Source of the DNA: a virus
Virus record (IMG/VR): IMGVR_UViG_3300006916_000389
Coordinates: 1-23,688 of that record
DNA: 23,688 nucleotides
Reading direction: 5' to 3' (one strand)
Below the pieces are notes generated by a model. It was not told where the DNA came from, did no database searches, and saw nothing but the letters and a program-made list of their open reading frames with translations. Within the stretch, counting starts at the first letter, position 1; the number at the start of each line of letters is the position of its first letter. Positions 4,139-20,297 of the stretch are shown piece by piece. The position numbers and the translations under genes are program-made.

Positions 4139-4214
4139 CTTCAATACCTTTCATGTATAGCCATCCACCCCCAATAATGAGGATGAAGGGCATAAAGACA
4201 ATCAATGAGATCAT
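4116..4214 (-). CDS. 32-aa single-span membrane peptide
   Basis: A very short gene supported by its context. ATG 4214 overlaps the stop of the upstream gene as ATGA and is preceded by AAGGGAG at ideal spacing. Residues 1-20 are almost wholly hydrophobic (MISLIVFMPFILIIGGGWLY), followed by a charged tail KGIEDGNNRRS, which predicts one inner-membrane helix with a cytoplasmic C-terminus. The final 23 bases overlap the start of the next gene in another frame. Function is unknown; small phage membrane peptides can act in lysis, superinfection exclusion or host-membrane remodelling. It could also be a leader that couples translation of its neighbours. Confidence 0.6.
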   Translation of the reverse strand: MISLIVFMPFILIIGGGWLYMKGIEDGNNRRS

Positions 4215-4684
4215 GACGCTCCCTTCTCGAGAAGTACAAAGCCCTTGATAGCGTTGAGAATATACTTTTCAGAGAAGGTGAGAAATTCGGTGTCGTCGTT
4301 GTTGGGGTTTTCGACTGCAAATTCGATGATGAACTGGTCTTTGGGTTGCACTGCTCTGTCGGTGTGGATGATGCTGGTGCCGTGTCGTCCGCAAGAGAAC
4401 AAAGGCATAAGTGTGTCCGGTCCCCAGTCAGGATGAATCTCCTGCATCTTCTGGAACCACGTCAGACCATTGATGGTCTTTCCCCCTCTGTCCAGCCCAT
4501 ATTGTACCAGTTGTACGACTACGTCGGGGAGCTCGATGACGTAGTTAGGGACCCCTGCTGCATCCGTTCTGACCCAGCACACACGTGTAACGTGTCGGTC
4601 CTCAACGATTGAGGTGTCGGATGTAGGGGGTGGCTTAGGAGTAAATGTTTCGAACATCTGCTCCGCAAATTGATTGGAATCCAT
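4211..4684 (-). CDS. Hypothetical protein, 157 aa
   Basis: Not recognised. ATG 4684 is preceded by GGAGG with a 7-base spacer, a strong start. The N-terminus is Pro/Thr-rich (FTPKPPPTSDTS), followed by a mixed alpha/beta soluble domain with a Trp-containing HPDWGPDTLMP segment and an acidic C-terminal third. There are no cofactor or nucleotide motifs. It begins just 25 bases leftward of a terminator-like hairpin (4700-4738) and overlaps the downstream membrane peptide by 4 bases, so it probably heads a three- to five-gene transcript ending at the terminator 1691-1727. Confidence 0.8.
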   Translation of the reverse strand: MDSNQFAEQMFETFTPKPPPTSDTSIVEDRHVTRVCWVRTDAAGVPNYVIELPDVVVQLVQYGLDRGGKTINGLTWFQKMQEIHPDWGPDTLMPLFSCGRHGTSIIHTDRAVQPKDQFIIEFAVENPNNDDTEFLTFSEKYILNAIKGFVLLEKGAS

Positions 4685-4899: not shown

Positions 4900-5361
4900 T
4901 CATTCGTTGGTGTAGTCATTGTGGGACTCCTGGGGGTGCGAATATGCGTGCTGTTCGAGGATGAAAGTGCTACGAATGGGTCGATTCATGTGCTCACCGG
5001 GGTTGAATGACACCTCGAGTTCGATGTGCTTGCGGTCATACTCGGATGGTTCGATGTAGCCAACACGGAGGAACTTGATACCCTCACGTTCTCGGGTAGT
5101 CATTTCCTGGTACGTCTTGACTTCGTAGTAGGTGGGACGCCCACCCTTACGCATGCGTGGCTTGGGTCCAGAGTTGTCACCGTCGTTGTTGATCATCGAC
5201 GGAATGGGGTTGGATTCACGCGACTTGAAGACCCACTTGGGCTGTTCAGCCACTGGGTTGTTGTCGAGTTCTGCCACTGCCCTGTACTCAACCACGATTG
5301 GGAGGTTGGGAAGCTGTGCTGCGTCTGACTCACGCATGTCATGGATCTTGTAGTTATTCAT
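4900..5361 (-). CDS. Hypothetical protein, 153 aa
   Basis: Not recognised. ATG 5361 is preceded by AAGGAAG. The protein is soluble, with an N-terminal segment NLPIVVEYRAVAELDNN and a central Arg/Lys patch SGPKPRMRKGGRPTYYEVKT that could touch nucleic acid. A Glu/Asp-rich beta-like region follows and the C-terminus is polar (SHPQESHNDYTNE). It lies 39 bases downstream of a hairpin and of one copy of an 18-bp repeated motif, and 4 bases upstream of the structured RNA candidate. Confidence 0.75.
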   Translation of the reverse strand: MNNYKIHDMRESDAAQLPNLPIVVEYRAVAELDNNPVAEQPKWVFKSRESNPIPSMINNDGDNSGPKPRMRKGGRPTYYEVKTYQEMTTREREGIKFLRVGYIEPSEYDRKHIELEVSFNPGEHMNRPIRSTFILEQHAYSHPQESHNDYTNE

Positions 5362-5391
5362 GTCATCTTCCTTGATGATTAGAGGGACTTG

Positions 5392-10910: not shown

Positions 10911-11265
10911 TACAACCGAAATCAAAAGAGCAGAGAAAGAGAAGGAGTACCCACCAATTACTCCTCAAGTGCAGGAAGCATTTGACAACATCGAAATGAT
11001 GGGCGAGATGGAGATCGTTCGGCTTTGCGGTGTAGGTGTCCAAGATCTAGGGATCATTGACCCTATTGATGGTTGGGCCTGGGGAGTCAAAGACCTCTAC
11101 AAAAGACTCAAGCGTTCGTTGTTTGACAATGAGGGCAAGGTACAGAAGCGTTACATTGCTCCCGCTTTAGCAATGGAGAAGAACACCTCTACGCACGAAG
11201 TACCTACAATGATGACATCCATCTGTATGATGGCCGGCGTCATTGCTTTCATGGAACAACAATGA
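10843..11265 (+). CDS. Hypothetical protein, 140 aa, hydrophobic C-terminus
   Basis: Not recognised. ATG 10843 follows GAGGCAGGG and lies 68 bases inside the previous gene, an unusually long overlap, while the last bases overlap the TerL start as ATGA. The first ~35 residues are Lys/Thr-rich and disordered (KTTKKIRRTKSTNPSIPSTT). The middle is a small alpha/beta domain with IDPIDGWAWGVKDLYKRLKR. The end, TMMTSICMMAGVIAFMEQQ, is hydrophobic enough for one marginal membrane helix or a buried one. A role beside the terminase is inferred only from position. Confidence 0.7.
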   Translation: MSNQPKTTKKIRRTKSTNPSIPSTTEIKRAEKEKEYPPITPQVQEAFDNIEMMGEMEIVRLCGVGVQDLGIIDPIDGWAWGVKDLYKRLKRSLFDNEGKVQKRYIAPALAMEKNTSTHEVPTMMTSICMMAGVIAFMEQQ

Positions 11266-13190
11266 AAGTAAAGTGGATCGAAAAAGCGAACAACCCGTTC
11301 TACCCTCTACCCTCTGACTACAACGAATTGGATAGTGACGGACAGAGACAGGCACGTGTAAATGCGTGCCGTCTTTGGTTGTGCCCTGGTCGTTCTTCAG
11401 ATGAGATATCTGAATCTTTTGCTTCTTCCGTTAAATTCTTTGATATGTTCTACCTTTGCCCTGATCATGAGGTGGACTTTGATCCGTTGTTCTATGACGA
11501 CACGCCATTAACAACACCTTCATTCCACTTTGACATACTGAGATCTTGGGCATCAAACAACAGAAACATAACAATCGCCCCACGTGGGTCAGCAAAATCG
11601 TTCCTTGTCCGCAAATCCTGCCTTCTGAGAATGCTAGCTCGTCCGATGTACACGATCTTGTACGCGACATCGACCAACGACAATGCAAAGGGGACAGGCC
11701 AAGCAATGAAGGATCAGTTCCTTCACAATCAAAGGATCTTGGACGATTGGTCACCAGAGTTCCCGGACGGTCGAATCTGCCCCCGGCGAGGTGAGGCTCC
11801 GTTCGGAACCGAGATGATGCAGCTGAAGAATGGTTCTTGGCTTAGATCCATCTCTGCCGAGAGCCGTCAGCGTGGTGGTCGACCGAGACGTTATGTTCTC
11901 GATGACCCCGAGTATGACCCCAAAGCATCTACGTCAATGTCGATCATCCGTCAGTACATGGATGACCTGCTATTCAAGATCGTGCTTCCCATGGTTATGC
12001 GGAAGGGTTGCGGTGTTGACTGGCTAGCTACGTTCGTTTCGCGACGACACTACGCCTGGCACGCCTTGCAGACAGAACAGAACGCTAGTGGGGAAAGGGT
12101 CGCTCAAGACCCGAGGTTTAACCTTTGGTCCAGGATGATTGTCAGAGCAGCCTATGAGGAAGAGGACGGAAGTCTTCAGAGCTGCTGGCCCGATATGTGG
12201 CCCGCTACAAAGACAGAGAAGACAGATGATCGAGTATCTCTTGAAGAGATCAAAAGCATTATCGGTACTGCTAACTTCCTGGCTGAGTATATGGCTCGAC
12301 CTGGTGAGTCAGGCGAGTCGTTCTTTGAGGCACTCAACAAGGACAAGCACGGGTGGTGGATCACCCAAGCCGACGAGTACCTTGAAACTCACCCAAGACA
12401 GTCCAATGCCTACATCAATTGGTACAAGGATGGGGAAGAAGCCAGACTTCCCATGTCAGACTTTCTGCGGGAAGCCAGACTGTTCATGTCCGTGGACACG
12501 TCCTACACCTCCACATCTGACTCCGATTACAAAGTAGCCTGCCTGATGGCAGTTAACTCAGACAACGATCTGTTTATCTTGGATCTCTGGAGTGGTCAGT
12601 GCCAAGAGGGACGACTCATCCAAGAGATCTTCAAGATGGCTGATGTCTGGAAGTGCCCAACTATCCACCCCGAGACAATCAAGCAGGGGATTGGGCTGTT
12701 CCACAACATTGAATCGATCATCAAGACAAGAGCTCTGGACATGGCCGGCGTATCTCACATGCCTGCAGTCAAGAAGCTGAATCCTGGAATGATCGACAAG
12801 TCCTCAAAGATTGCAGCGTTGAATCTGAGGTTTGAGCACGGCAAGATCAAGATGCCTCTTTGGCTTAGGAACAAAGCACAGTGGGCGAGACTGTTTGATC
12901 AGATAGAACAGTTTAATCCTGACGCCAAGGATGGCGGATTGCAGCACGATGATGAACTTGATTGCGTTGCGATGAGCCAATTTATTTTGAGGGGGCGCGT
13001 CCGGGCTCACCAAAGGGACCCGGACGCCGTTCACAATCCTATTGAGGAATTGAAATCAGGCAGAGTCTTCGATGCTCAAGGGAACCCTATTGGGTTTGGA
13101 GTGGACTGGAGAAATGTATCTGCTTCTGACATACTAGAAATACTGGACAATCATGTGGAAGGAACAGATGATGGAAGAACAAAGATCTGA
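11262..13190 (+). CDS. terL: Terminase large subunit (packaging ATPase/nuclease)
   Basis: The motor that pumps DNA into the prohead and cuts it. In the 642-aa product, the Walker A-like loop is APRGSAKS at about 106-113, an RG-SAKS form common in phage terminases. Walker B is YVLDDPE at 211-217, preceded by the basic RQRGGRPRR. The C-terminal RNase H-like nuclease begins with FMSVDTSYT, where Asp412 is a likely metal ligand, and closes with HDDELDCVAM around 562-571, supplying further acidic ligands. Length is at the upper end for podovirus-type TerL. The start overlaps the preceding stop as ATGA. Both domains are complete, with no frameshift. Confidence 0.93.
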   Translation: MKVKWIEKANNPFYPLPSDYNELDSDGQRQARVNACRLWLCPGRSSDEISESFASSVKFFDMFYLCPDHEVDFDPLFYDDTPLTTPSFHFDILRSWASNNRNITIAPRGSAKSFLVRKSCLLRMLARPMYTILYATSTNDNAKGTGQAMKDQFLHNQRILDDWSPEFPDGRICPRRGEAPFGTEMMQLKNGSWLRSISAESRQRGGRPRRYVLDDPEYDPKASTSMSIIRQYMDDLLFKIVLPMVMRKGCGVDWLATFVSRRHYAWHALQTEQNASGERVAQDPRFNLWSRMIVRAAYEEEDGSLQSCWPDMWPATKTEKTDDRVSLEEIKSIIGTANFLAEYMARPGESGESFFEALNKDKHGWWITQADEYLETHPRQSNAYINWYKDGEEARLPMSDFLREARLFMSVDTSYTSTSDSDYKVACLMAVNSDNDLFILDLWSGQCQEGRLIQEIFKMADVWKCPTIHPETIKQGIGLFHNIESIIKTRALDMAGVSHMPAVKKLNPGMIDKSSKIAALNLRFEHGKIKMPLWLRNKAQWARLFDQIEQFNPDAKDGGLQHDDELDCVAMSQFILRGRVRAHQRDPDAVHNPIEELKSGRVFDAQGNPIGFGVDWRNVSASDILEILDNHVEGTDDGRTKI

Positions 13191-13458
13191 ACGACCAGAC
13201 TCTCAGAACTCAGTAGTGGTTCCTCTGGCGTTCTTTGATAAACTGCTTAAGTGTTACTATGGCAGTGGTCCTAGAGAATCAGAGAAATACGCCCAGCGGG
13301 CACCCGAGAGCCCTGCAGTCGAAACCCCCAGTGCCGAGAGCCTTAGAGATTTACAAATCCAAACAAGTCTTCCCTCTGGGTATGTACCCAAAGGGGTGGC
13401 TCTCAGAAAAATAGAGGCCAGAAATGCCGATAGATCAGATCAAACTAACGAAGAATAA
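13168..13458 (+). CDS. Small protein between terL and portal, 96 aa
   Basis: Not recognised. ATG 13168 has GGAAGG at ideal distance; an ATG five codons earlier is less well placed. The gene overlaps terL by 23 bases and the portal gene by 35 bases, each in a different frame. A hydrophobic N-terminal motif VVVPLAFFDKLLKCYYG is followed by a Pro/Ser/Glu-rich, probably disordered, region. Short genes in this position are common in podovirus genomes, but their function is generally unknown. Sandwiched overlap limits confidence that it is expressed. Confidence 0.6.
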   Translation: MMEEQRSERPDSQNSVVVPLAFFDKLLKCYYGSGPRESEKYAQRAPESPAVETPSAESLRDLQIQTSLPSGYVPKGVALRKIEARNADRSDQTNEE

Positions 13459-15466
13459 AAAGGCACTGGCGAGGATTATTGATCAGCACGCTGAGCGTGA
13501 GGAAGCTCGACTCTCGTATCGAAGAACGACCTGGCTGCTCGCTTGGTACTACCTCAATGGTGCTAGGCGTTTCGACGTTTTTGACCCAGAGCAAGGAAGT
13601 ATACATCCCCACTATTTGGATGAAGAGGGGAACATGGAGTTTCAGTCCCAGGAGCTGATCTCCGCGATTGACCGCGTGAGTGCAAGGCTGGCGGCGGCTG
13701 ACTTTATGCCGAGCGTGAAGAGGAAGAACAACAGCCTTACTGCAGTTAAGGACCGTAGTATTGCTCAGATCATTTCCAACTCGTTGGTTTCTACGGACCA
13801 GCTCGAGAAGATCAAGACCCAGTTCTGCCACCTGTTCTCTACCCTGGGTTCCTGTGGAATCACCGGTCATGTGACTGACCACCCAACTATCGGGTTGAGC
13901 TCCGACCTCGAGGTAATTCACCCGAGGGAGCTGTTCCCATTCCCTAGCCTGGGTAACGACTACACCAAACAACAGGGGATCATGAGGCAAAGAACTGTGC
14001 CTCTCTCTTTCCTTAAGGACATCTTTGGCAAGAAGATAAACTCCCACATCAAAGAGATGGAGTACTGGGAAAAGAATGCGGGTGAAAGTCTCGAGGATGC
14101 TGACGACTCTGACTTCTCAGGTGGACTCGAATACGAGCCAGGAAATGCAGTACCCGGACAGCCCAGTAAATCACCAGAAGCTCTTGGCGTAGCTAAGATC
14201 CGAGAGCTCTGGCTCATGGATTCCCAGGACTTGGTATCCCGCTACATCGTGACAAGTGGGGATTACGTTATTCATGACGAAAGCTATGAGGGCCTGGAAG
14301 TCTACTGCCCAATTGGCTTTGCTCGATTCATGGAGAACGGATCCTTCCACGGAGCTGGGATGTTTGATCTGCTGTTCTCTATCTCAAGAGAACTCGAGAG
14401 GATGCTTAAGTCCCTCTTCAACAACATTCGAGAGATCGATAAGTATGGCGTTCTGGTCATGCCCCAGGGTCAGTTCAATGAGCGAGCTATGCTTCGTGAC
14501 GTAGGCAACGGCCTTCGCATGATCCCCTACGAGCCGGACCCAGTATCCGAAGGCTTCCGTCCCTTCACGATTGCACCCCACAACACGGGTGACATTCCCG
14601 GAAAAACCGCAAGCTTTGCGAAGTCGATGATGGACGGGCTTAGTCCTGTGCGAGATCTCATCGAAGAGAAGGGCCGAATCGACTCTGCAGCGGGACTCAA
14701 CTTCCTTGACGAAGAAGTCAACCGTGCAATGACCAACCCTTCTAGGGGTATCGACCAAGCATTCGGTGCTTGCTATCGATCAATGCTATCCAGTGCAAGC
14801 CGGGTAATTATGATGGCCCCCCGTCCTCTTCCGGTCTCAGATCTGACACTGGATATGGCGGGGGTCATCTTTGATCCAGTCGAAGGAACTGTAAGTTTCC
14901 AAGGCATGAACCCCATTCCGAACATCAGCACGCTTAGCTTCAATATCAAGTCTCGTACCCCGAGGTCAGGTACTGCTAGAAAGCAGGAAGCACTTGAGAT
15001 GATGAAGGCAGGACTCATGGACCCAGACGGTCTTAAGATCCTTGCCCTGAAAGAAAACCTGGATTTCGCTGTGTACCTCGATGAGGAAAAAGCAGCGTAC
15101 GAAAGTATTGTCCGTAACTGTCTTATCTTGTTTGGTGACGGTGAAAACTCCGGAGAGGTAGTAGTCACTCCACATACGGCTATGCCCGAAATGCAGCTGA
15201 GGATCCTTGGCTCATTCATGGCTAGCCCTTCAATGGCTATGGCTTCACCGTTAGTGCAAGATGAGTTCATGAAGTATCGTCAGTTCCTATTCGATTCCAT
15301 GGGTATGACACTGCCGGAAGCAGTACCTAATCCCGATGATATGGCTATGCTTATGCAAGCTGAAAGAGCCATGCAGGAACAGAAGATGAGACTGGCACAA
15401 CAAATGCAACAGGAAGGTGGTCCGGGTGGACCTCCTATGCCATTTCCTAACCAAGGAGTAGCTTGA
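13424..15466 (+). CDS. Portal protein (head-tail connector)
   Basis: The dodecameric ring through which DNA enters the head and to which the tail docks. The 680-aa product sits between terL and the scaffold/capsid genes, as portals do. It starts with a helical clip/stem-like region (ALARIIDQHAEREEARLSYR), then shows LELISAIDRVSARLAAADFMP-like wing features, in this protein QELISAIDRVSARLAAADF. The loop-rich core contains DLEVIHPRELFPFPS, and the Met/Gln-rich C-terminus has AERAMQEQKMRLAQQMQQE and a Gly-Pro tail. GAGG precedes ATG 13424. The family call comes from position, length and these features rather than a diagnostic motif. Confidence 0.85.
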   Translation: MPIDQIKLTKNKKALARIIDQHAEREEARLSYRRTTWLLAWYYLNGARRFDVFDPEQGSIHPHYLDEEGNMEFQSQELISAIDRVSARLAAADFMPSVKRKNNSLTAVKDRSIAQIISNSLVSTDQLEKIKTQFCHLFSTLGSCGITGHVTDHPTIGLSSDLEVIHPRELFPFPSLGNDYTKQQGIMRQRTVPLSFLKDIFGKKINSHIKEMEYWEKNAGESLEDADDSDFSGGLEYEPGNAVPGQPSKSPEALGVAKIRELWLMDSQDLVSRYIVTSGDYVIHDESYEGLEVYCPIGFARFMENGSFHGAGMFDLLFSISRELERMLKSLFNNIREIDKYGVLVMPQGQFNERAMLRDVGNGLRMIPYEPDPVSEGFRPFTIAPHNTGDIPGKTASFAKSMMDGLSPVRDLIEEKGRIDSAAGLNFLDEEVNRAMTNPSRGIDQAFGACYRSMLSSASRVIMMAPRPLPVSDLTLDMAGVIFDPVEGTVSFQGMNPIPNISTLSFNIKSRTPRSGTARKQEALEMMKAGLMDPDGLKILALKENLDFAVYLDEEKAAYESIVRNCLILFGDGENSGEVVVTPHTAMPEMQLRILGSFMASPSMAMASPLVQDEFMKYRQFLFDSMGMTLPEAVPNPDDMAMLMQAERAMQEQKMRLAQQMQQEGGPGGPPMPFPNQGVA

Positions 15467-16377
15467 TGTCCGAAGAAACAACGAACGTAAATGCCCCGGA
15501 AGTACCAACGCCACAGGTTCAGGAACAAACTCCTGCCCCTCCGGCAGAGATCAACCTGGACTCAAAGATTACGTTTGAGGGTAAAGAGGTTTCAGTCAAT
15601 GATCTGATTCAGCAGAGCAGAGAAGTAGAGAACCTTCGTGAGTACAGGGAGAACGCAACTACCCTGATGCAGGGTGAAAACGTACCCGAAGAGAAGAGAG
15701 AAAAGGCAATGCGGTATCTCCTCTCCCAGGAGGGGTACGCATCAAACCAGATCGAAGACTACATCAATGCAGCGAGACAGCAGACCATGACCCCAGAAAA
15801 TACAACTCCAGACAACGCACCTGAAATGCCCCAGCAAAATCAAATTAATGAGCAGGAGCAAAGGCGCATTTCTGAGATGGAACAGCGCCAGAACAAACTT
15901 GGCGTTGAGATGATGCGTCGTGACCTGGACTCAGCTGTAGAGCGAACGATGTCAGATAACCCACGTATTCAGTCTCTTATTGCTAAGAGCAAGGAGTTAG
16001 TGGGGGATGCAGACATTGAGGATAGGATCAACAACATTCGCGATGAGGTTCGTCGTTCCACCATGGATAGCATGAGGAATAGAAAATCTCGCGGAGAAAC
16101 ATTTGACAATTCCTGGTTCAATCAGGAAACTGATAAAGCCGCTGATGCGGTATTCGAAAGAATTCGGTCGGTAATCGGTGACCCGGACAAAATCCAGAGG
16201 GCACCGGAAACAGCATCGGACGCAGATAGTTTTGTAAATAAGCCCCCAGTGGCTGAGCCCACCTTCGAGAAGGGTGACAACATGGGTACCGCGACTACCA
16301 AGTCTCACGACTGGACCGTGGATGCCCTAGCCCGTCTCGCAGATGAAACCAGTCAGGGCGGGGAATCTCGTCTTTAA
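15466..16377 (+). CDS. Scaffold-like protein, 303 aa
   Basis: Probably the internal scaffold that shapes the prohead before DNA packaging. The sequence is rich in Gln, Glu, Asn and Pro, with an acidic Pro-rich N-terminus (PEVPTPQVQEQTPAPPAEIN), a conserved-looking strand KITFEGKEVSVNDLIQQ at ~34-50, and a long coiled-coil-like centre (EQEQRRISEMEQRQNKLG). A short basic/polar C-terminus ends WTVDALARLADE, the kind of terminal helix scaffolds use to bind capsid protein. AAGGAG precedes ATG 15466, which overlaps the portal stop by one base (TGATG). It lies directly before the capsid gene. Confidence 0.8.
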   Translation: MSEETTNVNAPEVPTPQVQEQTPAPPAEINLDSKITFEGKEVSVNDLIQQSREVENLREYRENATTLMQGENVPEEKREKAMRYLLSQEGYASNQIEDYINAARQQTMTPENTTPDNAPEMPQQNQINEQEQRRISEMEQRQNKLGVEMMRRDLDSAVERTMSDNPRIQSLIAKSKELVGDADIEDRINNIRDEVRRSTMDSMRNRKSRGETFDNSWFNQETDKAADAVFERIRSVIGDPDKIQRAPETASDADSFVNKPPVAEPTFEKGDNMGTATTKSHDWTVDALARLADETSQGGESRL

Positions 16378-16396
16378 TCTTTAGAGGAAATCCATT

Positions 16397-18028
16397 ATGT
16401 CCGCTACAACCGGATCCCTCTTCGACCACCATTCAACTCGAATCGAAGAAGTCATCAATAAGAATATTGAAGTCTTTCTTCCTTCCCTTGACCCCGTTTG
16501 GCGCGACACTGTCGTGACCTCCCAGGGCGTGGGACCCGCCGATGCTATCGGTCGGGACATGAAGATCCTCAAGGTCTACATGGGTTCGATGGCAGGTGTG
16601 CTCGAACAGGGCAACCCCCGTGGAGACGTTGGTCTTTACGGCGACGACACTGATACCCTTGGTTCGAAGATGTATCTTCAGAACCTTAATCAGACGTGGC
16701 CGGACCCGCTCAACGGTCCTAACGCATCCCCTTATCGTCTTGGTATCCCCATGCGTTCCATGATGTCCAACATCATGTTCACGCTCGGAGAACTCCAGGC
16801 CGAAGCGGTTCCTGCGTTTATCGGTGATGTAATTGCCCCGAAGCTGGAAGGCTTCGCCAAGAACATCTCTCACACTCTTTGTAACTACTGGTACGTCAAC
16901 CAGAACGATCAGTACAAGCTCGGTACTATTGCTTCTATCGTCGACGGCGATGCTTTTGATGCAATTGATAATGCGTCAACAAGTGCACGTCTCACGATTG
17001 ATGAGGGCACGTATGATCGTTTCTATGTCGGACAGTCCGTTGACATCGTTAAGAGCGATGGGGACTTCCGTAAGAATGATTCTGGTGCAGATGGTTCACA
17101 AACTACTGCAACCAGGATTAGGCTTTTCGTCCGTTCTATTGACGAACTGAAGGGTTACGTAACTCTCCAGGCTGCTACTGATGCGACCCATACTAACGGA
17201 ACCGCATTTGTTGCTTCTGGTGGTGATACTGCTCACGATACTTCGGTAGGCGATTACATTGTCTACGCTAACCAGGCTGATGTTACGGTTGCTGCGGGTG
17301 CTAATATGGCACCTACTGGCATTGCCGGTATCAACAGCTGGCTGAAGTCGGGTGACGTTTCCGCAGACAACACCAAGTTCCTTCTTGGTGCTGAACGTGA
17401 CACGTCGAACCAGATCGACCTCAGTGTCCATCCTGAGTTCAAGTCCTTCACGAAGAGTAGCGTTGGAACGCTGACTGAGCATAAGCTCCGCCAGTACCTC
17501 CGTCGCTTCCACTCCGCGAAGAACAAGTATGGTCAGTACATCGATTGCCTTGTTGCATCCGATGGTGTCTGGCTCGCTTATGAAGCTACCAAGATCGGCC
17601 GGGAAATCCTGGACCGCACTGGTCGCCTCAGTAGCATGTCCAGTGAAGGCTCGAACGAAGGGTTCTCCTTTGCGTTCGATGGTCGTACCTACCAGGGTTA
17701 CACCTCCACTTATGTCGAAGACGGCTCCGTCTACGGTATTCGTAAGGGTGGCAACAACTGGAAGCGTTACGTACCGCCCACGCCTTCGGGATACTCGACC
17801 TTCGGCCAGGCCGATTCGTTTGTCCCGTTCAACTTCATTGCTGGAGCCCTTACGGGAACCGGCACCAACAAGCTGCCTATCTACGATAGCTCTGCTACGG
17901 GTAACCGAAGCATGGTTACCGAAGGCGTCCAGATGCCTGGGCTCCTCCGTATGCAGCTTGTCCCTGACCAGCCTGCTGGTATGAAGCTGACTGGTGTCAC
18001 TACTGACACTGTCTACAGCGAATATTGA
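16397..18028 (+). CDS. Major capsid protein
   Basis: The main shell subunit, presumably with an HK97-type fold. The 543-aa product follows the scaffold gene after 19 bases, with AGAGGAAA before ATG 16397. A terminator follows, as is usual for this highly expressed gene. Visible features: an N-terminal arm, a segment WRDTVVTSQGVGPADAIGRD with KILKVYMGSM (~36-65), a Gly/Asp/Thr-rich insertion around residues 175-300 with beta-type composition that may be a surface domain, and a C-terminal core FHSAKNKYGQYIDCLVASDG and PGLLRMQLVPDQPAGM. The codon choice is cleaner and more C-ending than its neighbours, consistent with strong expression. Confidence 0.85.
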   Translation: MSATTGSLFDHHSTRIEEVINKNIEVFLPSLDPVWRDTVVTSQGVGPADAIGRDMKILKVYMGSMAGVLEQGNPRGDVGLYGDDTDTLGSKMYLQNLNQTWPDPLNGPNASPYRLGIPMRSMMSNIMFTLGELQAEAVPAFIGDVIAPKLEGFAKNISHTLCNYWYVNQNDQYKLGTIASIVDGDAFDAIDNASTSARLTIDEGTYDRFYVGQSVDIVKSDGDFRKNDSGADGSQTTATRIRLFVRSIDELKGYVTLQAATDATHTNGTAFVASGGDTAHDTSVGDYIVYANQADVTVAAGANMAPTGIAGINSWLKSGDVSADNTKFLLGAERDTSNQIDLSVHPEFKSFTKSSVGTLTEHKLRQYLRRFHSAKNKYGQYIDCLVASDGVWLAYEATKIGREILDRTGRLSSMSSEGSNEGFSFAFDGRTYQGYTSTYVEDGSVYGIRKGGNNWKRYVPPTPSGYSTFGQADSFVPFNFIAGALTGTGTNKLPIYDSSATGNRSMVTEGVQMPGLLRMQLVPDQPAGMKLTGVTTDTVYSEY

Positions 18029-18069
18029 TCGCTGTAGAGGAAATTTGGAAGAACCTCCTTCCTGCTGGA

Positions 18070-18108
18070 GAGGGGACCCTCAGCCTCCGGGGGTCCCCTC
18101 TTCTATTT
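18070..18108 (+). terminator. Strong intrinsic terminator after capsid gene
   Basis: A perfect 10-bp stem GAGGGGACCC (18070-18079) / GGGTCCCCTC (18091-18100) with an 11-base loop, followed by TTCTATTT. It lies 42 bases after the capsid stop codon. It would cap the packaging-to-capsid transcript and reduce expression of the downstream genes relative to capsid. Confidence 0.85.
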
Positions 18109-18134: not shown

Positions 18135-18308
18135 ATGGCGAAACGAAAGAAGAAAGCTAGCGATGCTTGCGCAAAGAAGGTTAAGTCCCGATACAAGGTC
18201 TGGCCTTCTGCTTACGCTTCTGGAGCTGTGGTCAAATGCCGAAAGGTAGGGGCTGCTAACTGGGGAAACAGCAAAAAGAAGAAGAAGAAAACGAAGAGGA
18301 AGAAGTAA
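18135..18308 (+). CDS. Tiny basic protein 1 of three (57 aa)
   Basis: Too short for most gene finders but well supported. It starts after the capsid terminator and its stop overlaps the next start as TAATG. The sequence has a Lys-rich start (MAKRKKKASDACAKKVKSRY), a core YKVWPSAYASGAVVKCRKVG, then AANWG and a pure Lys/Arg tail. I recognise the KVWPSAYASG-x-x-x-KC core from small proteins of aquatic phages and large algal viruses, but no function is known. The net charge is very high, with two Cys, so it should bind nucleic acid; packaging with the genome or modifying host chromatin-like DNA are possibilities. Confidence 0.8.
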   Translation: MAKRKKKASDACAKKVKSRYKVWPSAYASGAVVKCRKVGAANWGNSKKKKKKTKRKK

Positions 18309-18544
18309 TGGCTGGACTGCAAGACTGGTTCCAAAAGAACAGCGGAACAGGCTGGGTCGATTGCAAGACCGGTAAACCCTGTGGTCGCAAGTCCGCAAAA
18401 AAGGGTAAGTCAAAACGACCGTACCCTGCTTGCAGGCCAACCAAGTCTCAGTGCACATCAGCTAAAAATAAGAAGAGCGGGCCAGCGAGGGTTAACTGGA
18501 AAAAGAAAAAGAAGAAGGTAACCCGGAAGAAAAGGAAGAAGTAA
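18308..18544 (+). CDS. Tiny basic protein 2 of three (78 aa)
   Basis: ATG 18308 overlaps the preceding TAA by one base. The N-terminus LQDWFQKNSGTGWVDCKTGK is followed by PCGRKSAKKG, then KRPYPACRPTKSQC and a Lys/Arg tail. The W-V-D-C...P-C-G-R...Y-P-A-C-R-P-T...C arrangement gives four regularly spaced Cys, suggesting a small zinc-binding or disulfide knot between basic flanks. I associate this with a Pfam family of unknown function found in viruses (DUF5872 or a relative, from memory). Co-transcription and translational coupling with its two neighbours suggest a joint role, probably DNA binding in the virion or infected cell. Confidence 0.85.
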   Translation: MAGLQDWFQKNSGTGWVDCKTGKPCGRKSAKKGKSKRPYPACRPTKSQCTSAKNKKSGPARVNWKKKKKKVTRKKRKK

Positions 18545-18843
18545 TGGCCCGCAAAAAACAAAAACCAATCCGAAGAACTACTCGAGGCAGTGGAGCAAAC
18601 TACCGGCCCACAAAGAGTGGTGCAGGTATGACTGCTAAAGGGGTTAGGGCTCACCGAAAAGCAAACCCTGGAAGCAAACTAAAGACTGCAGTGACTGGCA
18701 AAGTCAAGAAGGGCAGCAAGGCTGCGAAGCGACGTAAGTCTTACTGTGCTAGATCAGCCGGACAAAAGTCCAGAAGCTCTGCAGCAACAAGAAACGATCC
18801 TAACTCACGAATCAACCAAGCAAGAAGAAGGTGGAAGTGCTAA
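18544..18843 (+). CDS. Tiny basic protein 3 of three (99 aa)
   Basis: ATG 18544 overlaps the preceding TAA. After a basic leader (MARKKQKPIRRTTRGSG) comes the block GMTAKGVRAHRKANPGSKLK, then TAVTGKVKKGSKAAKRRKSY, followed by CARSAGQK and a C-terminal RRRWKC. The MTAKGVxAxRxxNPGSKLxTAVT ... RRKS-x-C-ARS signature is one I recall from many aquatic phage and phycodnavirus proteins (DUF6321-type, from memory), always small and basic. The function is unknown. It is presumably nucleic-acid-binding given more than a quarter Lys/Arg. The stop overlaps the next gene's start as TAATG, extending the coupled chain. Confidence 0.85.
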   Translation: MARKKQKPIRRTTRGSGANYRPTKSGAGMTAKGVRAHRKANPGSKLKTAVTGKVKKGSKAAKRRKSYCARSAGQKSRSSAATRNDPNSRINQARRRWKC

Positions 18844-19400
18844 TGGAAATCGAGATGATTTACGATCCCGTGGAGGTCGCAGTAGGCACCGGTCTCGCTA
18901 TGGACGAACGGCATCAGGTCCTTCCTGAAAGCCAGTACCTCCGAGCAGTCAAAAGAGTAACGGGCAGGGATGACCTGTTTGTTTACCGCCACACTGAAAC
19001 ATGTAACTTTGTTCTGGCCCAGTGGGTATACACTGAGGAAGAGCACGGGTTCAGGGTCTGCATTGAACTAGAGACAATGCCCAAGGCTCCTGACCGGGGT
19101 GGCTGGATTGACCTTGAATACATCAAGATGCGTTGCGGCAAAGAGTCGGCAGCCAACAACATGAGAGCCATGAAGAACAGGATGCGTAACGCAAAGGCTG
19201 CTAAGGAACAAGCTAGACTCGACGCACTAGAGCAGCGAACCGACGCAGCTAAGTACCAAAGAAAACAAGGCAATGACGTTATTGCCGCAAGCATCGAGAG
19301 TGGTCCATATGTAGGAGACTCTCAAGCTAGCGAAGGTATGGAAGAGCTCAAGGATATGCTCGCCCATTCTGCTTCTGGCAAGATCATTACTTCGGGGTAA
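18843..19400 (+). CDS. Hypothetical protein, 185 aa
   Basis: Not recognised. ATG 18843 overlaps the preceding stop as TAATG; a start four codons upstream would lie inside the previous gene. The N-terminal ~100 residues are a soluble mixed domain (IYDPVEVAVGTGLAMDERHQ, later FRVCIELETMPKAPDRGGWI). Residues ~100-140 are a strongly charged helix, AMKNRMRNAKAAKEQARLDA, likely coiled coil. The C-terminus is flexible and Ser/Gly-rich. Despite being linked to the three basic proteins it is not itself Lys-dominated. It lies three bases upstream of the tail adaptor gene, so a connector or tail-assembly role is possible. Confidence 0.75.
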   Translation: MEIEMIYDPVEVAVGTGLAMDERHQVLPESQYLRAVKRVTGRDDLFVYRHTETCNFVLAQWVYTEEEHGFRVCIELETMPKAPDRGGWIDLEYIKMRCGKESAANNMRAMKNRMRNAKAAKEQARLDALEQRTDAAKYQRKQGNDVIAASIESGPYVGDSQASEGMEELKDMLAHSASGKIITSG

Positions 19401-19403
19401 GAC

Positions 19404-20297
19404 ATGCACTCTACTGGATCATTTCTACTGACGGTTATCGAGAGGGTTCGTGCTTACTTGGACGAAGCTATTGTCGATGCCAAGTTTACAAACGACTATT
19501 TGGTACGCCACGTTATTTGTCCCGAGATGGTCAATGTTCTTTCCCGTCTCTCCAACAACGCTGACAACTGCATTCGTGTACGACACGAGATCGCACTTGT
19601 CGATGGGCAGGAGGACTACATACTTCCTCCCAACATCGGAGAGGTCTATAGGTTTGCGGTCCTGGATGCAGAGAAGAGGATCACAAAAGAGTTTGTACCT
19701 CGTAACGAGTTCTCTCCCCGAGGACCAGGGTGGCAGATTCAAGGCAACATGCTTTCATTCCGACCGCTGCCTGCTACGGGTGAGTCGGTAGACCTGCACT
19801 ACATTCCCAACGGAGACTTCCATCCCCACTATGATGCGGACGGTGGAAACCTTTCTACGTCAACAACATTCGTGTTCGACAATGCGCCTACTCTAGGTGA
19901 TATTGATCGTCGTGAGAATGCTTACGCTGGTGCGATCCTCAGAGTCTGGGACTCTAGCACCAATGTAATTGAAGAGAGAGTTATTAGTTCTTATGTTGCG
20001 GACACTCGTACTGCTACGGTTCGAAGACCCTTTACACATTCCACGGGTGGAACTAAGAAGTACGAAGTAGCCCCTGTCGGCATGAACTCGCTTATGCAGG
20101 CAATTGCCTGTGGTGCTGCCATCAACCTGGGTACCTCCAGGAACATTACACAGAAACAGATGCAGTTCATCTTGCTTCAATACAAGATGGCAATGAAGAC
20201 TGTCGGGGATAACCTGAGCTTCATGCAGGCCCGAAAGCCCAAGTCCTATGAGAAGGACACGGTTGATAACAGAAGCATGTACCTCTTTGGTGACTGA
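19404..20297 (+). CDS. Tail tube A-like head-tail adaptor
   Basis: A 297-aa protein. It begins with a helical bundle (VIERVRAYLDEAIVDAKFTN then VICPEMVNVLSRL) and continues into a beta domain opening with IALVDGQEDYILPPNIGEVY. This is the pattern of podovirus gatekeeper proteins such as T7 gp11 and P22 gp4-type adaptors, where 'i-x-l-v-x-G-x-x-x-Y-x-L-P' marks the first strands. A long beta insertion follows and it ends with a basic helical tail. It would bind under the portal and join it to the tail nozzle. It is longer than T7 gp11. Its stop overlaps the next start as TGATG. Confidence 0.65.
   Translation: MHSTGSFLLTVIERVRAYLDEAIVDAKFTNDYLVRHVICPEMVNVLSRLSNNADNCIRVRHEIALVDGQEDYILPPNIGEVYRFAVLDAEKRITKEFVPRNEFSPRGPGWQIQGNMLSFRPLPATGESVDLHYIPNGDFHPHYDADGGNLSTSTTFVFDNAPTLGDIDRRENAYAGAILRVWDSSTNVIEERVISSYVADTRTATVRRPFTHSTGGTKKYEVAPVGMNSLMQAIACGAAINLGTSRNITQKQMQFILLQYKMAMKTVGDNLSFMQARKPKSYEKDTVDNRSMYLFGD

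Follow-up and report, generated by a model that had tools for sequence, protein, structure and literature searches.

General features of the cassette and its surroundings

The window, by which we mean the whole stretch of DNA that was analysed, is a virus contig of 23.7 kb, the plus strand of which carries a cassette of three small genes for basic proteins, named here M1, M2 and M3. M1 (18135-18308) encodes a 57-aa protein with a WPSAYAS core and two cysteines, M2 (18308-18544) a 78-aa protein with the motif CGRK...YPACRPT and, in the window copy, four cysteines, and M3 (18544-18843) a 99-aa protein of the DUF6321 family. Three one-base TAATG overlaps join M1, M2, M3 and the next plus-strand gene (18843-19400; 185 aa when counted from its ATG) in a chain, the last of these genes overlapping M3 by one base and matching no Pfam or PHROG family. 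Lysine plus arginine residues against aspartate plus glutamate residues number 23/1 in M1, 28/2 in M2 and 32/1 in M3, with net charges of +22, +26 and +31 (+79 per set) and isoelectric points of 10.9, 10.9 and 12.0, respectively. An equal per-residue basicity was found in just 0.5% (M1), 3% (M2) and 4% (M3) of 1011 other small plus-strand ORFs from related contigs. The initial annotation had described three small ORFs of 57, 78 and 99 aa chained to the 185-aa gene, and its coordinates, overlaps and charge are all borne out.

Comparison of M1-M3 with two relatives gave dN/dS ratios of 0.05-0.19 in five of six comparisons (0.06-0.19 for M1), dS being saturated in the sixth. Because the ratios were this low wherever dS could be estimated, M1-M3 are translated genes under purifying selection, and the low ratios together with hundreds of homologues of each protein identify them as genes and not chance ORFs. 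Residues C25 and C42 of M2 are invariant in 39 aligned relatives, as are C68, R70, W97 and the C-terminal C99 in the alignment of M3. The AlphaFold2 model of M3 is mostly helical (pLDDT 83, pTM 0.63; helices at residues 31-40, 59-77, 80-84 and 89-97), and a Foldseek search of the PDB with it returned no fold match; the M1 and M3 sequences likewise matched none of the solved structures searched. When M3 was compared with a viral structure library, the named matches were DUF6321 proteins, mostly from phages, and a virion protein of the cyanophage S-SCSM1; a single 'uncultured virus' and a few entries without a name made up the rest.

Upstream of the cassette, a 543-aa gene (16397-18028, plus strand), which follows a 304-aa gene, had been called the capsid gene. 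This label is positional, since the AlphaFold2 model of the product was unusable (pLDDT 40) and hhalign profile comparison with three known capsid proteins gave no match; no PHROG or Pfam family matched the gene either. The gene order does support its identity as the capsid gene: a terminase large subunit gene (11262-13190, plus strand; phrog_38, E 1.2e-41) is followed by a 680-aa gene, which sits in the portal position and has no family match, the 304-aa gene, the 543-aa gene and, beyond the cassette, a SU10-type head-tail adaptor gene (19404-20297, plus strand), whose match to PF24175 (E 2.8e-5, 25.1 bits) lies slightly below the cut-off of 27. The 543-aa gene is conserved at 51-99% identity in 28 IMG/VR loci. 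Neither it nor the 680-aa gene (together within window positions 13424-18028) matched any of 50,697 phage records, their relatives being found in metagenomic virus contigs only, so that the capsid assignment stands on gene order and is without a counterpart among phage isolates. Between the putative capsid gene and the cassette lies a hairpin of 15 bp (18067-18103, plus strand), a probable terminator or mRNA-end hairpin. It had been described as a strong terminator, and its RNA fold is indeed stable (-30.8 kcal/mol, z -3.4). The U-tract, on the other hand, is poor, and a consensus scan recovered just a 5-pair fragment of the hairpin. At the other end of the window, a gene of the uracil-DNA glycosylase superfamily is located on the minus strand (301-1080; PF03167, E 2.4e-21).

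Protein families and distribution of the modules

M3 was assigned to DUF6321 (PF19846) with 42.6 bits against a cut-off of 28.5 (E 1e-10), the match covering profile positions 6-72 of 72. M1 matched PHROG 727 (E 3e-18); with 15.0 bits against a cut-off of 27.5 it fell below the threshold of DUF5872 (PF19197), a family that was matched by 33 of the 46 aligned M1 proteins at an E value of 0.1 or better (best E 3.4e-10). Judged from these alignments, the window M1 belongs to DUF5872 at best through its relatives. No Pfam match was obtained for M2, the relatives of which match PHROGs 727, 3477, 23735 and 12753; some of these are also matched by M1 or M3, and PHROG 727 is common to M1, M3 and the M2 relatives. 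DUF6321, DUF5872 and PHROGs 727, 3477 and 10346 carry no function.

Among the 600 stretches listed per IMG/VR search, relatives were encoded by at least 465 for M1, 579 for M2 and 598 for M3. In the phage record collection, 366 records contained M1, most of them from phages of Synechococcus and Prochlorococcus, and 293 contained M3, pelagiphages among them. The recurrence of the cores in aquatic phages, stated in the initial annotation, thus holds on a large scale, with at least 450 IMG/VR contigs per module and about 300 phage records for M1 and M3. The link to algal viruses that was proposed along with it holds by family label for M1 only, DUF5872 being listed for a haptophyte virus (PMC12085832), while the structure-library matches of M3 are mostly from phages. 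DUF6321 and DUF5872-like modules, to which no role has been assigned, are found in the genomes of hundreds of marine phages. Homologues of M3 were also seen in 48 contigs (L300-L347) of bacterial or archaeal genome bins and single cells, many of them marine (Pelagibacteraceae, Flavobacteria and others); these are probably phage contigs.

Separate and fused architectures

All three modules occurred as separate neighbouring genes at 92 of the loci fetched, in the order M3-M1-M2 at 55 and M1-M2-M3 at 37, while 51 loci had M1-M2 only, 43 had M3 only, and 30 had M2-M1-M3 within one ORF. In separate sets in which a module follows M1, this module is M2 in all but one, and M1 overlaps the gene after it by one base (TAATG) in 94 of 150 cases. 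Among isolated phages, separate cassette genes are carried by Phage DSL-LC04, Prochlorococcus phage P-SCSP2 and Roseobacter phage CRP-902, and M3 by HTVC010P. When the count was restricted to loci flanked by 1.5 kb or more at either end, M2 was present at 43 of 47 M1 loci and M1 at all 47 M2 loci; M3 stood without M1 or M2 at 22 of the 45 loci with adequate flank. The idea that M1-M3 always travel together was therefore dropped, the M1-M2 pair being constant and M3 not. Fusion of M1 and M2 was found on one contig of the window's own lineage.

The fused M2-M1-M3 chains belong to T4-like cyanophages, in which the modules are strung as beads in long ORFs, with linkers between them and other recurring modules interspersed. 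One of the latter is a CWKGYEKKGMK module. In chains such as L057, L085, L086 and gene 29 of S-SCSM1 we also noted a small module CWKGYEKKGMKTMFGKRYPNC (52 matches), a YYCxTDKKCKPIPxG module and one domain that looks DUF192-like by eye only. In the Roseobacter phage CRP-902 (L004), two more tiny basic proteins (4201-4371 and 5117-5374) adjoin M1 and M2, of which one has a KGVKHY module and the other, of the 'HVA1 family', ends in SFRARHNCDNPGPKTKARYWSCKAW, a sequence that by eye is like the end of M3.

Protease-site-like, targeting-like and tag motifs

The prohead protease gp21 of phage T4 cleaves after L/I-X-E, and the T4 internal proteins carry an N-terminal capsid-targeting peptide that is removed by gp21 after this motif; they are non-essential and variable (PMC9026906). 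In 68 fused module ORFs, with related sequences counted as independent, the motif [LIVMF]xE was found directly before M1 in 47 of 57 cases (18.5 expected), before M2 in 36 of 42 (11 expected) and before a further module, M4, in 33 of 46 (11 expected); the excess before M3 was weak (21 of 39, 12 expected; p 0.003). Hydrophobic-x-E was thus commoner before modules than in linkers at large, and the strict L/I-x-E form was less enriched at these positions than [LIVMF]xE. As far as sequence can tell, these motifs resemble the gp21 cutting rule; by our own reading, ILTE is found where such a site would be expected in the capsid protein of S-SM1. In the S-SCSM1 chain the candidate sites read VSE|G, FNE|D and VSE|G.

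Several cyanophage chains also begin in a manner like T4 IPI. An MK-x-[FY]-x-[EQ]-F-[ILV]-x-E start was present in 7 of the 68 fused chains, but in no more than 5 of the 3953 other ORFs compared (Fisher p 2e-10, again with relatives counted as independent), and T4 IPI itself starts with the closely similar MKTFKEF. A compact example is gene 192 of S-SZBM1, which starts with MKTFKQYITE and has M3 after MRAE. In contrast, M1-M3 of the window begin straight with the basic modules; a capsid-targeting peptide with a prohead-protease site at its end is missing from their N-termini. Some separate proteins bear a C-terminal tag, e.g. GGFIAKGCGKVMNNRRKVTSIS or RGQGAVMKERLR, of the patterns RGQGxVMxxRLR or KGCGxVMxxRRKxT (L222, L217, L208, L109 and others). 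It was found on 25 of 150 M1 and 29 of 145 M2 proteins (54 of 295). Among 8720 other plus-strand ORFs it ended just 9, and several of these resemble cassette members. The tag may be a sorting signal; the window M1-M3 are without it.

Detection of fused relatives in virions

For two of the fused relatives, published work gives a listing as virion protein. ORF137 of S-CREM2 (108049-109521), whose C-terminus after '..SSMNE' is M3, was detected in the virion proteome with four unique peptides and 4.1% coverage (PMC10665884, Table 3). Gene 29 of S-SCSM1 (42662-44215), located between terminase genes, encodes the whole M2-M1-M4-M3 chain; this second case is based on the label 'virion protein' in the genome record of a phage in whose virion 45 phage proteins were detected by mass spectrometry (PMC9602691). 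ORF136 of S-CREM2 (L293:996-1709), which adjoins the M3 chain, is Lys-rich with a somewhat capsid-targeting-peptide-like start, MQTFSMFFSEDAG, and was itself detected in virions (8 peptides, 24.1% coverage; PMC10665884, Table 3).

Two further candidates were set aside. The S-SZBM1 'virion structural protein' encoded by gene 190, which was detected, was considered as a module chain and rejected, the module protein of this phage being gene 192. A P-SSM2 annotation, 'similar to S-SM1 protein', was considered as a mark of proteomics and dropped because the S-SM1 homologue is itself annotated 'hypothetical', other S-SM1 genes being called structural.

None of the 30 proteins detected in S-SZBM1 virions is the M3 protein of that phage, gene 192 (PMC9146016), as would be expected if the modules were non-virion DNA- or RNA-binding proteins of the infected cell that serve, for instance, in replication, recombination or packaging. 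The two listed virion proteins argue against such a role, in which, moreover, the capsid-targeting-like and protease-site-like motifs would lack purpose.

Genomic context and patchy presence of the cassette

The neighbours of 138 separate-cassette loci were classified. At least one terminase, portal, capsid, scaffold or virion-protein gene and no replication gene was found near the cassette at 104 of them, whereas five loci had replication genes only, 28 had no recognised neighbour, and the window had both kinds; this count is descriptive, since the seeds came from the neighbours themselves, and replication seeds were fewer than head seeds. The capsid seeds near cassettes span PHROG families 371, 267, 1328 and 334, and judged by these assignments the cassettes adjoin head genes of several unrelated lineages. 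The idea that head genes invariably accompany the cassette was dropped: besides the five loci with replication genes alone, two relatives of the window, G013 and G014 (loci L291 and L290), carry M3-M1-M2 on the opposite strand, adjoining DNA polymerase A. In G014, genes for a 2OG-Fe(II) oxygenase, a PD-(D/E)XK exonuclease and Sak4 follow. These arrangements suit a function in the infected cell outside the virion, but where neighbours could be recognised, cassettes adjoin head genes in the large majority of cases, and on balance we regard that explanation as quite unlikely.

The putative capsid gene has 28 relatives. In three of them (L252, L253 and L255) the complete cassette comes next, and in two (L254 and L277) part of the cassette or a rearranged form; in nearly all others the 185-aa gene comes next, with no module in between. 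When 19 whole contigs of this capsid lineage, which may be incomplete, were searched, M3 was found in six and M1 in four, M3 being unmatched in 13 and M1 in 15. Patchy and relocated in this way within the window's capsid lineage, the cassette behaves as a portable add-on. The fixed stoichiometry that had been proposed for the three proteins does not survive these comparisons: the gene order varies, M3 often stands without M1 and M2, and most relatives of the window phage are without the cassette.

This distribution also bears on the possibility that the modules act on the capsid shell as cement, decoration or scaffold, where their cysteines and tryptophans would serve for contacts or disulfides. 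The invariant Cys and Trp residues would fit such a structural part, and a cement protein is encoded two genes before M3 in DSL-LC04. Yet close relatives with the same putative capsid protein do without the cassette, the charge of the modules is far beyond the need of a shell protein, and T4 capsid-targeting sequences direct proteins to the core and not to the surface (PMC9026906). Such a shell function is considered very improbable.

Proposed role inside the phage head

The most economical reading is that of a basic protein set inside the head. We consider it probable that M1-M3 are accessory head-internal proteins, packaged along with the phage DNA to which they bind, and that they occur as separate proteins in phages like that of the window and as a processed polyprotein in cyanomyoviruses. 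The virion-internal location put forward in the initial annotation gains support in this respect from the head-gene neighbours and, in fused relatives, from the protease-like sites, the targeting-like N-termini and the two virion detections; location as head-internal cargo is the likelier part, and a dominant DNA-condensing role is ranked lower. What speaks against this reading is that most relatives of the window phage are without the cassette, that a few carry it beside replication genes, that M3 often stands apart from M1 and M2 and its model matches no PDB fold, that S-SZBM1 gene 192 was not detected in virions, and that the S-SM1 homologue is annotated 'hypothetical'. In T4-like cyanophages, a chain of M2-M1-M3 and further modules would enter the prohead and be cut by a gp21-type protease, leaving a set of similar small basic proteins inside the head, while phages like that of the window would make separate small proteins from overlapping genes. 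The Lys/Arg-rich parts would bind the packaged DNA, neutralising and ordering part of its charge. Cleavage, location within the head, DNA binding and an equal location of the window's separate proteins are what we infer from these data; condensation of DNA by M1-M3 would follow from their charge.

Inside the head, the set could act by charge neutralisation or as ejected effectors. Composition speaks for the former, as does the comparison with P64 of ascoviruses and with proteins of a chlorella virus. P64, a modular virion protein with Cys-containing motifs and basic stretches, was shown to bind and condense DNA (PMC6163548), and is a functional analogue of the modules; it belongs, however, to an insect virus, and its PF08793 (2-cysteine adaptor) motif, which matched neither M1-M3 nor the M1 alignment, and its Arg/Ser repeats were not found in the window proteins. 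In the chlorella virus PBCV-1, likewise a virus of eukaryotes and thus unlike the window phage, six basic proteins on the virion DNA were proposed to neutralise charge (PMC3281028).

Ejected effectors, which would be carried in the head and act in the new host by blocking its defences or altering its DNA processes, are favoured by analogy with T4 IPI, a small head protein that is injected with the T4 DNA and inhibits a restriction enzyme. The internal proteins of T4 are dispensable, and the patchy presence of the cassette within one phage lineage, as well as the varied extra modules of the cyanophage chains, would fit an accessory arsenal. The modules are nevertheless extremely basic and fairly constant across hosts (dN/dS 0.05-0.19), unlike a typical arms-race effector, and no similarity to known inhibitors was found, so that we hold this role to be unlikely. 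Remodelling of host DNA by M1-M3, one of the functions suggested at the outset, is possible.

The closest precedent for a basic head-internal set are the T4 proteins IPI, IPII and IPIII, small basic head proteins present at about 360 copies each (PMC9026906, PMC9958956). In contrast to these, the basic modules described here have Cys/Trp cores of their own that are conserved, none of the Pfam and PHROG families matched by M1-M3 is by name an IP family, and the modules share one chain in cyanophages or are separate genes without a targeting peptide in the window. Polyvalent proteins of phages and conjugative elements are also multi-domain, and some, such as DarA and DdrB of P1, are cut and packed in the head (PMC5512222); these are large enzymes or effectors, unlike the strings of tiny basic modules seen here. 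In the literature searched, we found no proposal that the separate genes and the fused chains represent alternative versions of a single virion cargo.

A broader proposal, which we advance tentatively and with some doubt, is that a portable, chromatin- or protamine-like set of tiny basic modules is common to tailed phages of aquatic habitats that belong to several unrelated capsid lineages. The modules would be made as separate proteins, some of them C-terminally tagged, or released from a polyprotein by the prohead protease, and much of the DNA packaged in these phages would be neutralised by protein in addition to metal ions and polyamines. If the modules are indeed virion-internal, proteins of this set would be very widespread inside virions in the ocean. 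The PBCV-1 paper cited above states that there is no evidence for much contribution of basic proteins to the neutralisation of phage DNA (PMC3281028), and this view, which credits cations and polyamines and not protein, would need revision for aquatic phages. By our rough arithmetic, about 28% of the phosphates in a genome of 50 kb would be offset by a charge of +79 per set if each protein were present at the copy number of about 360 known for the T4 internal proteins (PMC9958956).
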